Below, one piece after another: positions 8,449 to 28,320 of a stretch of 47,982 bases of DNA. Every line of letters begins with the position of its first letter. Position 1 is the first letter of the stretch. Source of the DNA: Acidithiobacillus sp. GTDB lineage: Bacteria > Pseudomonadota > Gammaproteobacteria > Acidithiobacillales > Acidithiobacillaceae. The stretch spans positions 1-47,982 of the forward strand of contig NZ_DAHVHY010000009.1 in the NCBI RefSeq assembly GCF_027322205.1, given 5' to 3'. The position numbers were made by a program, and so were the translations under genes. The notes beneath the pieces were generated by a model. It did no database searches, was not told the DNA's origin, and saw nothing but the letters and a program-made list of their open reading frames with translations.

Positions 8449-9888
8449 TTAGTCGAAAGCCCCGGATTCGCCAGAAGCAGCTTTGGTGCTGTCGTCCATA
8501 CCCAACTCTCTGAGCTTGCGGGTGAGTGTATTGCGCCCCCACCCGAGCTTGTGCGCGGCGTCCTGCTTATGGCCACGGGTATGTTGCAGGGCTGCTTCCA
8601 GCAGACAGCGCTCGAACTGCGGCTGAATCTTGTCCAACAAAGACTCTTCGCCGTCAGCGAGGCGCTGCCGTACTATACCCCCCAGCAGCAGACGCCAATC
8701 CTGGACGTTCGAGTCCTGCGGCACGGCAGACGGCGCCGGCGCGGCCATTTCCGGCGGCAAATCTGTCACCTGAACCTCGCTGGTAGGTGCCATCACGGTA
8801 ATCCAGCGACAGACATTCTCCAACTGGCGAACATTGCCTGGCCAATACCAATTCATGAAAGCGAACTCCGCTGCCGGACTCAATACCTTGCGCTCGACAT
8901 CCAACTGCTCCGCACTGCGACGGAGAAAATGGCGGGCCAGGCGCGGGATATCTTCACGCCGCTCCCGCATGGGTGGGAGGTGGATGTGGATGACGTTGAG
9001 ACGGTGGTAGAGATCTTCCCGAAAACTACCGTCGCGCACCTTGGCTTCGAGATTCTGGTGGGTCGCGGCGAGAACGCGGACATCCGCACGTTGGGGCGCA
9101 TGGCCACCGACCCGGTAGAAGGTGCCGTCGGAGAGCACCCGTAGCAGCCGCGTCTGCAGGGCGGCGGGCATATCGCCAATTTCATCGAGAAAGAGGGTAC
9201 CCCCGGAAGCCTGCTCAAAGCGACCCTGCCGGGTCTGCACCGCCCCGGTAAAAGCGCCCTTTTCATGGCCGAAAAGTTCCGATTCCAGCAATTCGGCGGG
9301 AATAGCCGCCGTGTTGATGGCGATGAAGGGTCCGTGCGCGCGGGGACTGTGTCTATGCAGAGCACTGGCCACCAGTTCCTTGCCTGCCCCCGACTCGCCG
9401 GTAATAAGCACGTTGATCTGTGAGCGCGACAGACGACCGATGGCACGGAACACCTCCTGCATGGCCGGAGCTTCGCCAATCATTTCCGTCGGATCGCTCT
9501 CCTCAACACTCGCGGCGCTCGGCTCTGCCTGACTGCCAAGAGCGCGCCGCACCAGAACAACGGCCTCGTCCATATCAAACGGTTTAGGCAGATATTCAAA
9601 AGCCCCGCTCTGAAAAGCGGCGACGGCATTGTCGAGATCGGAGTGCGCTGTCATCACGATTACCGGCAGTTTTGGCCAACGCGATTGCACTTCGCGCAGG
9701 AAGGCCAGCCCATCCAGGCCCGGCATGCGCAGATCGGTGACGATGGCTTCCGGCTGCTCGCGCCCCAGTGCCCGCAGGGCACTGTCGGCCTCGACAAAAC
9801 TGCGTACCGGGATATCAGCCTGGGTCAGCGCTTTCTCTAACACCCAGCGAATTGAAGGGTCATCATCAATAATCCAGACCTGTCTCAT
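8449..9888 (-). CDS. ntrC: Nitrogen regulation response regulator NtrC (sigma-54 activator)
   Basis: This sigma-54-dependent activator has 479 residues. The receiver domain has phospho-acceptor Asp52 in VTDLRMPGLDG. The AAA+ domain has Walker A GESGAGK (about 164-170) and the sigma-54 contact loop GAFTGA (211-216). A Fis-type helix-turn-helix lies at the C-terminus (QDAAHKLGWGRNTLTRKLRE). The start at ATG 9888 gives a normal receiver N-terminus, and its ATG overlaps the TGA of ntrB. It should bind the TGCAC-N7-GTGCA dyads found at 11148, 12075, 19503, 21786, 26193 and 26213 in this window. Confidence 0.96.
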   Translation of the reverse strand: MRQVWIIDDDPSIRWVLEKALTQADIPVRSFVEADSALRALGREQPEAIVTDLRMPGLDGLAFLREVQSRWPKLPVIVMTAHSDLDNAVAAFQSGAFEYLPKPFDMDEAVVLVRRALGSQAEPSAASVEESDPTEMIGEAPAMQEVFRAIGRLSRSQINVLITGESGAGKELVASALHRHSPRAHGPFIAINTAAIPAELLESELFGHEKGAFTGAVQTRQGRFEQASGGTLFLDEIGDMPAALQTRLLRVLSDGTFYRVGGHAPQRADVRVLAATHQNLEAKVRDGSFREDLYHRLNVIHIHLPPMRERREDIPRLARHFLRRSAEQLDVERKVLSPAAEFAFMNWYWPGNVRQLENVCRWITVMAPTSEVQVTDLPPEMAAPAPSAVPQDSNVQDWRLLLGGIVRQRLADGEESLLDKIQPQFERCLLEAALQHTRGHKQDAAHKLGWGRNTLTRKLRELGMDDSTKAASGESGAFD

Positions 9889-10970
9889 GCGAAGGTCTCC
9901 CGGTGCGTTGACAGAGGCAGAGAAACGGAAAATACCGTTTCCCCGGGTTGCGAGTGGCAATGAACCACCCCGCCATGCCCGCGTACCAATCCCTGGACGA
10001 TAGCGAGCCCCATCCCCATGCCCTCAGCACGACTGGTGACCAGCGGCAAAAAAATCCGGGGCAACAGGTCTGGAGGGATTCCCGGGCCGCTATCGACTAC
10101 ATCCACACGCAGCGCCAGGCGAAACTTGTGATGCAAGAGGGTAACGTAGCGTTCGACCCGGGTACGAATCAGGATCGTGCCGTGGCGGTCCAGCGCCTGC
10201 TGGGCGTTACGCATTAAGTTCAGAAAAACTTGCACCAGTTGCTCCTGATCGGCCAAAATATCGGGGATAGAGGGATCGTAATCGAAACGCAGGGAAATAC
10301 CCGTGGGCAATTCCGCGTTCAGCAGCCGACGCACATGTTCAAGTACCTGATGGATATTCACCTCGGCAAAAACCGGGCGGCTGCGGGGTCCTTGCAGGCG
10401 ATCCACCAGATGATGGAGACGATCCACCTCATGGAGAATGACCCGTGTGTAATCCTTCAGTTCAGGGCGCTGCAGTTCACGCTCCAGGAGTTGCGCGGCC
10501 CCGCGCAAGCCGCCGAGGGGATTCTTGATTTCGTGGGCGAGGCCACGCAACATCTCCTGGGCGACGCCATAGATACGATCCTGCATTTCCTCCTCGGCAT
10601 GACGTGCCGGCAGCTCCATTGGCCGCATTTCCAGAATGAGGCCGTCCGTTGGCGCGGGAGTCACCACCAAATCCACTACTGCACTACCGCCCTCACTCAG
10701 CACCAAAGACAAAGCCCTGCGCAGTATCGCCGTGTTTGCCGTAGCGGCATCCGCAAAAAGTGTGGCGAAGCGCTCATCACCGACGATACTGCAAAGTGCC
10801 GATAAGGCCTGTCCCAGCGCCTGGTGCTGGCTAACGCGCAGCAGATTTTCGGCGGCAGGATTCATATAACGAATGTGGTAACCACTCCCCAGAACCAGTA
10901 CCGCCGATTCCAGAGCATCCAGCACCATATTCTCTGTGGGCAGAGTGATTATGCTTTTACGGCGCACCAT
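9885..10970 (-). CDS. ntrB: Nitrogen regulation sensor kinase NtrB
   Basis: This cytosolic histidine kinase/phosphatase controls NtrC and is itself usually controlled by PII. It has 361 residues: an N-terminal PAS domain (about 12-120), the H box LAHEIKNPLGGL with His146, the N box NLMRNAQQAL (about 251-260), G1 DSGPGIP (about 293-299) and a GMGMGLAIV G2 box. ATG 10970 has GGAG five bases upstream, so the 30-residue longer frame is rejected. A sigma-54-like element and an NtrC dyad lie upstream, suggesting autoregulation. Confidence 0.95.
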   Translation of the reverse strand: MVRRKSIITLPTENMVLDALESAVLVLGSGYHIRYMNPAAENLLRVSQHQALGQALSALCSIVGDERFATLFADAATANTAILRRALSLVLSEGGSAVVDLVVTPAPTDGLILEMRPMELPARHAEEEMQDRIYGVAQEMLRGLAHEIKNPLGGLRGAAQLLERELQRPELKDYTRVILHEVDRLHHLVDRLQGPRSRPVFAEVNIHQVLEHVRRLLNAELPTGISLRFDYDPSIPDILADQEQLVQVFLNLMRNAQQALDRHGTILIRTRVERYVTLLHHKFRLALRVDVVDSGPGIPPDLLPRIFLPLVTSRAEGMGMGLAIVQGLVRGHGGVVHCHSQPGETVFSVSLPLSTHRETFA

Positions 10971-11017
10971 GCAAGCTCCGATTTTGTGATTCACCAAACA
11001 GGCTCTATGCCCAGTCA

Positions 11018-26625: not shown

Positions 26626-26960
26626 AATTGATCACTGCCATTGTTAAACCCTTCAAGCTCGATGATGTCCGTGAGGCGCTATCGGCGGTAGGGATCCAGG
26701 GCCTCACGGTTACTGAAGTCAAAGGCTTCGGACGCCAGAAAGGTCATACCGAACTCTACCGCGGCGCTGAATACGTGGTGGATTTTCTCCCCAAAGTCAA
26801 AATAGAGACGGTAATCAGCGATGATGCCGTTGACCAGGCCGTTGAGGCCATCGAAAAAGGTGCCCGTACCGGCAAGATTGGTGACGGCAAGATTTTCGTC
26901 TCCGAAATATTGGAAGCTATCCGCATCCGTACCGGTGAAACCGGTAATGATGCGCTGTAA
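26622..26960 (+). CDS. glnK: PII signal-transduction protein GlnK/GlnB
   Basis: This 112-residue trimeric PII protein senses 2-oxoglutarate and ATP/ADP and controls Amt and NtrB. It has a conserved N-terminus ([20 protein letters not shown]) and a T-loop [19 protein letters not shown] with uridylylation site Tyr51. The B-loop region [13 protein letters not shown] and a normal C-terminus follow. Position directly before amtB and a sigma-54/NtrC promoter favour GlnK over GlnB. Its ATG overlaps the stop of the leader ORF; its own ribosome site is AGAGGTG. Confidence 0.95.
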
Positions 26961-27015
26961 CCACCCATAACCGTTTTACAACCGCTCAGAAATCCTTATA
27001 AGGAGGAATTTTCTC

Positions 27016-28320
27016 ATGTCAGTAGCTTGGCTTAATACCGGCGACAATGCGTGGCAACTTACCGCAGCGACCATCGTTGGCTTGCAAAGTGTTCCCGGGC
27101 TCGTCGTCTTGTACGCGGGCATTGTTAAGAAGAAGTGGGCCGTCAACTCCGCTTTTATGGCTTTTTACGCCTTCGCTGCCGTGCTGATTGCCTGGGTTCT
27201 CTGGGCTTATAACATGGGCTTCGGCAATGAATGGTTCCCTTTCGTGGGGCTGCCGCACCCCATCCTCAGCATGCAGGATGAACTCACACAGGCGCTCCTG
27301 CCGACCTCCAACACTACCGCCGCTTTCCCCATGGCAACCATGGTGTATTTCCAGTTCGTGTTTGCGGCCATTACCCTGGTAATCATGGCTGGGGCATTCC
27401 TCGGACGCATGAGTTTCAAGGCGTGGATGATTTTCGTGCCGCTCTGGCTGACCTTTTCTTATACAATCGGTGCGTTCAGCCTCTGGGGCGGCGGTTTTCT
27501 CTCCACCTTGGGCGTCATCGACTATTCCGGTGGTTATGTCATCCATCTTTCTGCCGGCATCGCGGGCTTTGTCGGTGCGGCGGTCATTGGCCCCCGTCTG
27601 GCGCGTGATCGCGAAAACTTTCAGCCCAACAACGTGCTGCTGATGCTGGTCGGTGCCGGCATTCTGTGGCTCGGCTGGAACGGCTTCAACGGTGGCGATC
27701 CTTACGCAGCGAGCCGTGACGCTGGTGCCGCGGTTCTGAACACCAACATCGCCACTGCCGTTAGCGTGATCGTCTGGACTATCATGGATATCTTCTATTT
27801 CAAAAAGCCTTCCGTCATTGGTGCGGTGCAGGGCATGATCACCGGCCTGGTGGCCATTACCCCGGCCGCTGGTGTGGTAGATGGTTGGGGTGCAATTGCC
27901 ATCGGTATCGCCTCTGGCATTATTCCCTGGCTCAGCATGAATCTTCTCGGTAAAACCGCGCCGTTCCGCAAAGTGGATGACACCTTGGGCGTCTTCCATA
28001 CCCATGCGGTAGCGGGTGTTCTGGGGGGCATCATGGTAGGTCTGCTAGCTACCAAGACAGGCTGCGCAGCTTATGGTCTGAGCAACCCCGGTGGTGCCAT
28101 CGACGGCAACTGGCATCAGGTCTGGCTACAGATTATCGGCGCCGCGTTCATCATCGTGCTGAACATCGTGGTGACCTACATCCTGCTCAAGCTCATCAGT
28201 CTGGTGGTGCCGCTGCGCATGTCTGAGGAAGAGTTGCTGATCGGCGATGATGCGATCCACGGTGAAGAAGCCTACGCTTTCTATGGCGATGGTGAACGTC
28301 GGCCGGTGGCTGGGGACTGA
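27016..28320 (+). CDS. amtB: Ammonium transporter AmtB (second copy)
   Basis: This 434-residue Amt channel starts 55 bases after glnK behind AAGGAGGAA. It lacks the signal-like N-terminal extension of the other copy and starts at the first helix pair ([20 protein letters not shown]). Pore histidine regions are [17 protein letters not shown] and [16 protein letters not shown]. The C-tail [17 protein letters not shown] is the PII-docking end. The two Amt proteins are clearly divergent from each other, so they are not a recent duplication. Confidence 0.95.

Follow-up and report, generated by a model that had tools for sequence, protein, structure and literature searches.

In a 47,982-nucleotide stretch of Acidithiobacillus DNA (contig NZ_DAHVHY010000009.1; the whole stretch is hereafter the window), the genes for the nitrogen regulators NtrB and NtrC share one cluster with an Anbu proteasome-like peptidase system, the kinase gene prkA and two ammonium-transporter (amt) genes, and the gaps between these genes carry NtrC-type dyads and sigma-54 (-24/-12) promoter elements. 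An NtrC/sigma-54 regulon is very likely present. We consider it highly probable that the main NtrC regulon lies in a single chromosomal cluster together with its regulator, and that it includes a 65-nucleotide (nt) small RNA with an anti-Shine-Dalgarno (anti-SD) linker, activated from a dyad downstream of its gene. A first-pass annotation of the window had proposed a shared regulon physically linked to ntrBC; this proposal is strongly supported by the enrichment of the sites, by their genus-wide conservation and by the presence of both NtrC and RpoN among the encoded proteins.

Our patterns were TGCAC-N7-GTGCA for the NtrC dyad and TGGCAC-N5-TTGCT for the sigma-54 element, with chance levels taken from dinucleotide shuffles of the window. 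Perfect dyads occur five times against 0.09 expected, and dyads with at most one mismatch nine times against 2.97, a count matched by 1 of 100 shuffles. When two mismatches are allowed, the window holds 28 dyads against 34.7 expected, no enrichment over chance, and we therefore used mostly perfect and one-mismatch sites. Sigma-54 elements with at most one mismatch number six against 1.4 expected, again matched by 1 of 100 shuffles. The six dyads reported by the first-pass annotation are all intergenic, four being perfect and two having one mismatch (Table 1), and its gene-oriented elements are found ahead of the ATP-grasp, PDC-sensor, prkA, first amt and glnK genes, whereas the element of ntrB, TGGTGCGCTTTTTGCT, has two mismatches. 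With the transcription start taken as 26 nt from the first base of the element, the distance from dyad center to start is 149 bp for ntrB, 194 bp for the ATP-grasp unit, 315 bp for the PDC gene, 130 bp for prkA, 100 bp for amt, and 116 and 96 bp for the tandem dyads of glnK; recomputation from coordinates thus returned the earlier range of 96-194 bp, with 315 bp for the PDC gene. By our reading of the sequence, weaker second TGCAC copies accompany the ATP-grasp dyad (at 20 bp) and the prkA dyad (at 22 bp).

The concentration of sites extends to the scale of the genome (2.28 Mb, 90% complete), which contains six perfect dyads, four of them intergenic within this 15-kb cluster. At the genome-wide rate, four perfect dyads in 15 kb have a Poisson probability of about 1e-7, a value that applies to a stretch picked after the sites were seen. 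The two remaining perfect dyads are one at 45711, inside a LysR-type gene and probably a chance occurrence, and one upstream of a pyridine-nucleotide reductase that we read as NirB-like. Elements of the form TGGCAY-N5-TTGCW occur 26 times genome-wide and three times in the cluster; those elsewhere include elements ahead of nifH and a nifB-like gene, where sigma-54 promoters are to be expected. At two further genomic sigma-54 sites (L017 and L023), one-mismatch dyads lie upstream of a carbon-nitrogen hydrolase gene and of an open reading frame (ORF) with a GntR-type-looking N-terminus; these genes are possible outlying NtrC targets.

Relatives came from an Anbu search that returned 104, of which the best 80 were kept. 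Fourteen of these loci (L033-L045 and L055) are genus-like, 12 labelled Acidithiobacillus and two being contigs of metagenome-assembled genomes labelled Proteobacteria. Similarity to these loci also points to Acidithiobacillus as the source of the window. As far as the contigs reach, the order ntrC-ntrB, anbu, ATP-grasp, Alpha-E, transglutaminase-amidoligase, (PDC), prkA, amt is common to them; the exceptions are L055, with no prkA found within the locus, and L045 (A. sulfuriphilus), rearranged to anbu, amidoligase, ATP-grasp, Alpha-E and still carrying a dyad and an element ahead of ATP-grasp. Dyads and elements are among the best-conserved blocks in intergenic DNA that has otherwise diverged. 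With at most one mismatch, the ntrB-anbu dyad is present in 14 of 14 loci, the ATP-grasp dyad and element each in 13 of 14 (L055 has two mismatches in the dyad, L036 two in the element), the prkA dyad and element each in 10 of 10, the PDC-gene element in 12 of 16 genus copies and, among loci continuing beyond prkA, the first-amt element in 8 of 9 and its dyad in 7 of 9. A fitted pattern for the ntrB element matches the window and 13 of 13 loci, L045 carrying a one-mismatch version. At glnK, the element is found in 12 of 12 pieces (the window and 11 relatives) and the dyad in 10 of 12, always 98 or 78 bp upstream of the element, which are the spacings of the two tandem dyads (distal and proximal, respectively); a further one-mismatch dyad match lies downstream in L307 and L315. 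The first-pass annotation had staked its reading on the presence of these sites in relatives, and both dyads and elements proved to be conserved across the genus.

One element points to a predicted RNA gene that had been overlooked. The first-pass annotation had given the plus-strand element at 19286-19301 to no gene and had missed the small RNA behind it. By our analysis this element drives no protein gene and precedes a conserved predicted small RNA. Ten bases past the element stands the block TGATCATGGTCATNTGATCACTCCTCCTCAAGTGGCTTCC, followed by a GC-rich hairpin and then a T run; taking the C of GC as position -12 places the RNA start at the first base of the hairpin, 19312. The 65-nt unit is predicted to fold into a 5' hairpin, a mostly open linker, CUCCUCCUC, and a terminator (z -2.73; 2 of 200 shuffles were equally good), and minimum-energy folds of eight diverged relatives retain the 5' hairpin in seven. 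The window scan gave no Rfam family at gathering score, and the RNA's own 3-kb locus (L222) no Rfam match at E <= 0.5; L248, a copy from another genus, has a sub-threshold score against SorX.

The exact core of the RNA occurs once per genome in 16 of 17 genomes of the genus. A covariance model built from the RNA alone, with the promoter element left out, detects 11 copies (E <= 2e-5), distributed over 9 of the 12 family genomes sampled outside the genus. All 16 genus copies and 10 of the 11 others have the element at exactly -26 (26 of 27 in all). A dyad with at most one mismatch likewise follows the RNA in 26 of 27: its position is +189 to +203 in every one of the 16 genus copies, and +79 to +270 in 10 of the 11 found elsewhere in the family. 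Paired changes on both sides affect 9 of 13 base pairs against a shuffled mean of 1.4, counted over 20 distinct rows of 27 in an alignment fitted to the model, which favors structure. Copies are 58-66 nt long. The PDC gene is the divergent neighbor of 8 of the 11 copies outside the genus, and in L035 and L037 the RNA is retained where the PDC gene was not found. With a promoter of its own, an intrinsic terminator and a conserved structure, the predicted RNA shows the marks of a trans-acting small RNA. In genome G385, a second, diverged copy follows spoVR directly (L259, 696-759); its element at -26 is perfect, and its dyad stands at +270. Genome G388 also has two copies (L248 and L258), the second keeping its anbu/ntrB neighbors and lacking the -24 part of the promoter and an adjacent PDC match. 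A weaker match to the model (E 6e-5) lies elsewhere in the window's own genome (G000:C109, 11140-11200).

Farther afield, weak matches of model R1 in 34 of the 369 genomes sampled from the class (E <= 0.1) were not counted as homologues, and some of them fall on RF02278-like RNAs. The combination of a sigma-54 element and CTCCTCCT occurs in 19 of the 369 genomes, the window's own included. Among the 18 other pattern matches, six have no T run in reach (L295, L296, L300, L302, L303 and L304), and the linker lies inside a long stem in L287, L292, L293 and L301. The clearest copies of the promoter-linker layout come from three genomes of family f152 (L288-L290), and L299 is similar. All three sampled f152 genomes have a sigma-54 element, a long hairpin, GACTCCTCCTGCTT and a terminator, with no dyads; the linker in this element-hairpin-linker-terminator design reads CUCCUCCU. 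The f152 RNA is possibly an independent sigma-54 anti-SD small RNA.

What could the small RNA do? Its linker, which does not vary within the genus, could base-pair with Shine-Dalgarno sequences, and the obvious suggestion is therefore that the RNA inhibits translation. With RNAduplex we scored pairing of the linker to 28 start regions in the window and, for relatives, in 22 family genomes with spoVR, with other genera scored with the genus linker instead of their own. The best pairings in the window are with alphaE (-23.8 kcal/mol, z -2.1), spoVR (-22.4, z -5.1) and yeaH (-21.7, z -2.0); the spoVR match, GCCACTGAGGAG, is yeaH coding sequence. Across 17 genus genomes, 10 give spoVR pairing at -19.7 or better and seven drop to between -14.6 and -17.2 despite the invariant linker, and the yeaH match appears in only two genomes (20 had a usable yeaH start). 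The yeaH and spoVR pairings are not kept across species, and we rejected them as support for specific targets. A broader picture is tentative and, in our judgment, less than likely: a family of NtrC/sigma-54 anti-SD RNAs, with a downstream enhancer and usually a divergent PDC gene, could broadly lower translation initiation during starvation for nitrogen, forming the RNA branch of the regulon to which the Anbu system belongs, with similar sigma-54 anti-SD RNAs having perhaps arisen in at least one other family (f152).

Two other roles deserve consideration. First, the 65-nt unit could be an attenuated leader, with transcripts from 19312 either terminating or reading into the next gene on some signal; the next plus-strand gene in the window is prkA, and for 7 of the 11 copies found beyond the genus the first gene to follow on the RNA's own strand is ntrB. 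However, prkA has its own dyad and -24/-12 element past the terminator, and the downstream gene varies by genus (prkA in L247, ntrB in seven copies, opposite-strand anbu in both G388 copies) while the divergent PDC gene is steadily upstream (8 of 11), a pattern that argues for a free RNA. We regard the leader as unlikely. Second, the RNA could mimic the 3' end of 16S rRNA (GAUCAC..CCUCC) and titrate an rRNA-binding factor rather than pair with mRNAs. The genus sequence GAUCACUCCUCC does resemble GGAUCACCUCCUU, which we take to be the 3' tail of 16S rRNA, but the GAUCA part is GGUCA or AUUAC in some other copies and tracks the base pairing of the stem, leaving mimicry with a small probability.

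In the mechanism we favor, nitrogen shortage would cause NtrB to phosphorylate NtrC, and NtrC on the dyads would loop to sigma-54 polymerase at the -24/-12 elements of ntrB, the ATP-grasp/Alpha-E/amidoligase unit, the PDC gene, prkA, amt and the glnK-amt unit. From the dyad downstream of the RNA gene, NtrC would also turn on the 65-nt small RNA, which, perhaps with Hfq, would most likely pair with ribosome-binding sites and lower the translation of some mRNAs. Meanwhile, the proteins of the regulon could remodel and recycle nitrogen. Binding by NtrC, dependence on nitrogen and action of the RNA are what we infer; the sites with their enrichment, conservation and spacing, the conserved structure and promoter of the RNA, and the genes for NtrC, RpoN and Hfq are what the sequences show. 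NtrXY is also encoded in Acidithiobacillia (reported in PMC12194929), and NtrX or another regulator of the TGCAC type could bind the dyads instead of NtrC. We give this very little credence: the dyad fits the NtrC consensus, adjoins ntrBC, and precedes glnK, amt and the nirB-like gene.

The ATP-grasp promoter can be followed beyond the genus. In the class sample (Gammaproteobacteria in GTDB), the ATP-grasp protein was found at E <= 1e-60 in 106 of the 369 genomes, a count that includes the genome of the window, and we surveyed the 89 best-scoring loci besides that of the window (to E 2.5e-202; 84 genomes), a set that excludes weaker and fused forms. Weight matrices for sigma-54 and NtrC sites were written from consensus sequences. 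Within 300 bp upstream of ATP-grasp, 27 of the 89 loci reach a sigma-54 score of at least 12, compared with 16 of 2534 control windows and 4 of 89 antisense controls; the NtrC matrix scores 14 or more in 11 of 89 loci, compared with 5 of 1267 controls. Among the best 80 of the 104 Anbu loci, five from Sideroxydans/Gallionella have an element 51-53 bp ahead of ATP-grasp, and one of these, the Sideroxydans locus L047, is the sole case outside the genus-like loci with ntrBC (NtrC match about 60% identity) and glnK-amt nearby. A dyad between ntrB and ATP-grasp was looked for in L047 and is absent from that intergenic region.

Several observations weigh against the regulon as we have drawn it. At the class level, 62 of 89 loci lack a sigma-54 element scoring at least 12, which is why nitrogen-type control of the ATP-grasp operon looks widespread and not universal. 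In Pseudomonas putida, PP_2686-2688 still rise 14- to 20-fold in an rpoN mutant, by the data given in PMC7801951, which speaks against assuming sigma-54 control everywhere and is the chief published sign of that kind that we saw. For the small RNA, genome G369 has no copy, the sole such case among the 17 of the genus; L254 lacks both a dyad and, in its minimum-energy fold, the 5' hairpin; L258 lacks the promoter; and the linker is partly paired in L247, L248 and L249. None of the 18 pattern matches outside the window's genome has an NtrC dyad near the promoter-linker layout, and neither yeaH nor spoVR was upheld as a conserved target in family genomes. Finally, no sigma-54 element is oriented toward anbu in the window or in most of the loci scored.

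This last point divides the Anbu system. The first-pass annotation had assigned the whole system to the starvation response; the ATP-grasp/Alpha-E/amidoligase unit has a sigma-54 promoter, and anbu itself has no such element. As we read the sequence, the only clear sigma-54 promoter within the Anbu cluster is that of the partner unit. Thus, anbu could be under independent, sigma-70-type control, with the nitrogen response confined to the partner operon, an alternative to which we assign somewhat less than an even chance. A conserved -10-like block begins 44-47 bp before the anbu ATG, and in wild-type P. putida PP_2685 (Anbu) changes 1.12-fold as against an 11- to 15-fold rise of PP_2686-2688 (PMC7801951, Table 2). 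By contrast, the dyad lies at a fixed 129-131 bp before the anbu ATG in the window and in all 13 loci counted (14 of 14; L045 excluded), although in the same set 95 to 148 bp separate it from the ntrB element; L045, outside this count, has the dyad 319 bp before anbu and, 133 bp before it, an element that weakly resembles the sigma-54 type. The anbu promoter may be of the sigma-70 type and acted on by NtrC, or the constant spacing may have another cause.

The genes of the cluster are assigned in Table 1. NtrC and NtrB are orthologues by NCBIfam cut-offs, with the true start codon of ntrB likely at or below about 10997, and the genome also encodes Hfq and RpoN (PF04552 at G000:C110, 231.5 bits). 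Five solved chains match the Anbu protein (E 1.2e-76 to 9.1e-54), each deposited as Anbu or as a peptidase, and the protein falls slightly short of the Pfam Proteasome cut-off (21.5 against 22.4). An alignment of relatives suggests that its translation starts at MTYCL, and we take Thr1 to be the nucleophile of Anbu. Anbu, ATP-grasp, Alpha-E and transglutaminase genes all stand together in the window, as in the Anbu gene cluster defined by Iyer et al. 2009 (as cited in PMC6376114). The spoVR-glnK gap is 467 bp in the window and 1.4-1.6 kb in seven of the eight relatives whose piece includes both genes; in L305 (477-1724) it contains a gene for a BBP2-type porin of 415 amino acids, and at 26307-26621 of the window a 92-amino-acid ORF, overlapping glnK by ATGA, resembles a deletion remnant. 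Downstream of the nitrogen cluster, a heavy-metal P-type ATPase, an HMA-domain protein and a mercuric-reductase-like flavoprotein with an HMA domain are grouped at 37451-43052, likely a metal-resistance block.

Table 1. Genes, predicted regulatory sites and the predicted small RNA of the cluster, in window coordinates
Feature	Position	Strand	Remarks
ntrC, nitrogen response regulator NR(I)	8449..9960	-	TIGR01818, 774.9 bits (cut-off 558.6)
ntrB, nitrogen sensor kinase NR(II)	9885..11009	-	NF008293, 308 bits (cut-off 240)
-24/-12 element of ntrB	11018..11033	-	two mismatches
NtrC dyad, ntrB/anbu gap	11148..11164		perfect
anbu, proteasome-like peptidase	11278..12024	+	nearest solved chains are Anbu proteins, best E 1.2e-76
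NtrC dyad upstream of ATP-grasp unit	12075..12091		perfect
-24/-12 element of ATP-grasp unit	12251..12266	+	perfect
Circularly permuted ATP-grasp ligase	12379..13842	+	PF14403
Alpha-E protein	13827..14804	+	PF04168
Transglutaminase-like + DUF2126 amidoligase fusion	14863..18225	+	PF08379, PF01841, PF09899
PDC/dCache membrane sensor-like protein, divergent from small RNA	18210..19148	-	dCache/PDC matches slightly under Pfam cut-offs
-24/-12 element of PDC gene	19207..19222	-	perfect
-24/-12 element of small RNA	19286..19301	+	first base exactly 26 nt before RNA 5' end
Predicted NtrC/sigma-54 small RNA, 65 nt	19312..19376	+	5' hairpin, anti-SD linker, intrinsic terminator
NtrC dyad, small RNA/prkA gap	19503..19519		perfect; 191 bp downstream of RNA start
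-24/-12 element of prkA	19615..19630	+	one mismatch
prkA (yeaG), serine protein kinase	19730..21664	+	NF011999, 1202.9 bits
NtrC dyad upstream of first amt gene	21786..21802		one mismatch
-24/-12 element of first amt gene	21868..21883	+	one mismatch
amt, ammonium transporter 1	21950..23266	+	PF00909
yeaH (DUF444)	23385..24689	+	PF04285
ycgB/SpoVR-like	24682..26157	+	PF04293
Tandem pair of NtrC dyads, 20 bp apart	26193..26229		26193 perfect, 26213 one mismatch
-24/-12 element of glnK unit	26291..26306	+	perfect
glnK, P-II protein	26622..26960	+	PF00543, NF007946
amt, ammonium transporter 2	27016..28320	+	PF00909

More broadly, the conserved link of the Anbu system to NtrC and the starvation kinase PrkA, together with the sigma-54 elements before ATP-grasp in about three in ten of the sampled class loci, marks nitrogen run-out as a definite setting for a search for Anbu substrates. 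The predicted small RNA is a compact new candidate regulator, open to test, that would add a post-transcriptional arm to the nitrogen response of biomining bacteria. A small-RNA prediction study in A. ferrooxidans reportedly exists. Our literature search for an NtrC-controlled small RNA of Acidithiobacillus returned nothing that looked related by title and the start of the abstract, and it returned no paper joining Anbu with NtrC or DUF2126 with nitrogen, most subscription papers lying outside its coverage. As far as the literature was searched, three things are new: the physical clustering, the promoter signal ahead of ATP-grasp across the class and, most of all, the small RNA, which is apparently undescribed. 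The well-supported regulon extends known biology into a new lineage.

Individual parts of this arrangement have precedents. The link between Anbu and nitrogen is already published (Hervas et al. 2008, cited in PMC5666114 and PMC6376114): the P. putida genes PP_2685-PP_2688, discussed in PMC7801951, likewise encode Anbu, transglutaminase, Alpha-E and ATP-grasp proteins, are induced on nitrogen shortage, and are thought likely to be under NtrB/NtrC control (Hervas et al. 2008/2009, as cited in these three articles). In contrast to P. putida, the Anbu cluster here is linked to ntrBC, prkA, amt and glnK, and its ATP-grasp unit has a clear sigma-54 promoter. The yeaGH genes of Escherichia coli, encoding a PrkA-family kinase and YeaH, are bound by NtrC and induced by nitrogen starvation, as described in PMC4664914; in the window, an amt gene lies between prkA and yeaH and a small RNA ahead of prkA. 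A 2025 survey of sigma-54 in Acidithiobacillia (PMC12194929) also predicts NtrC and RpoN sites in the class; it states that no nitrogen genes lie near ntrBC, whereas this cluster shows otherwise, and its main text does not mention Anbu or PrkA. Among small RNAs, the RF02278 Betaproteobacteria toxic small RNA is likewise short and, in the matches seen, has a CCUCC linker and a terminator, and 5 of 15 loci scanned score against it, all under its gathering score; unlike those loci, the window RNA has no match at E <= 0.5, and it has a sigma-54 promoter. Another parallel is NrsZ of Pseudomonas aeruginosa, made under nitrogen limitation by NtrB/C and RpoN next to ntrC according to PMC8395346. NrsZ is about 226 nt long and processed, whereas the RNA described here is 58-66 nt with one hairpin, a linker and a terminator. 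Because NrsZ is made by NtrBC and RpoN beside ntrC, and the promoter type and location of our RNA fit those of NrsZ, the two are likely counterparts in position and control, as compared by description rather than by sequence.

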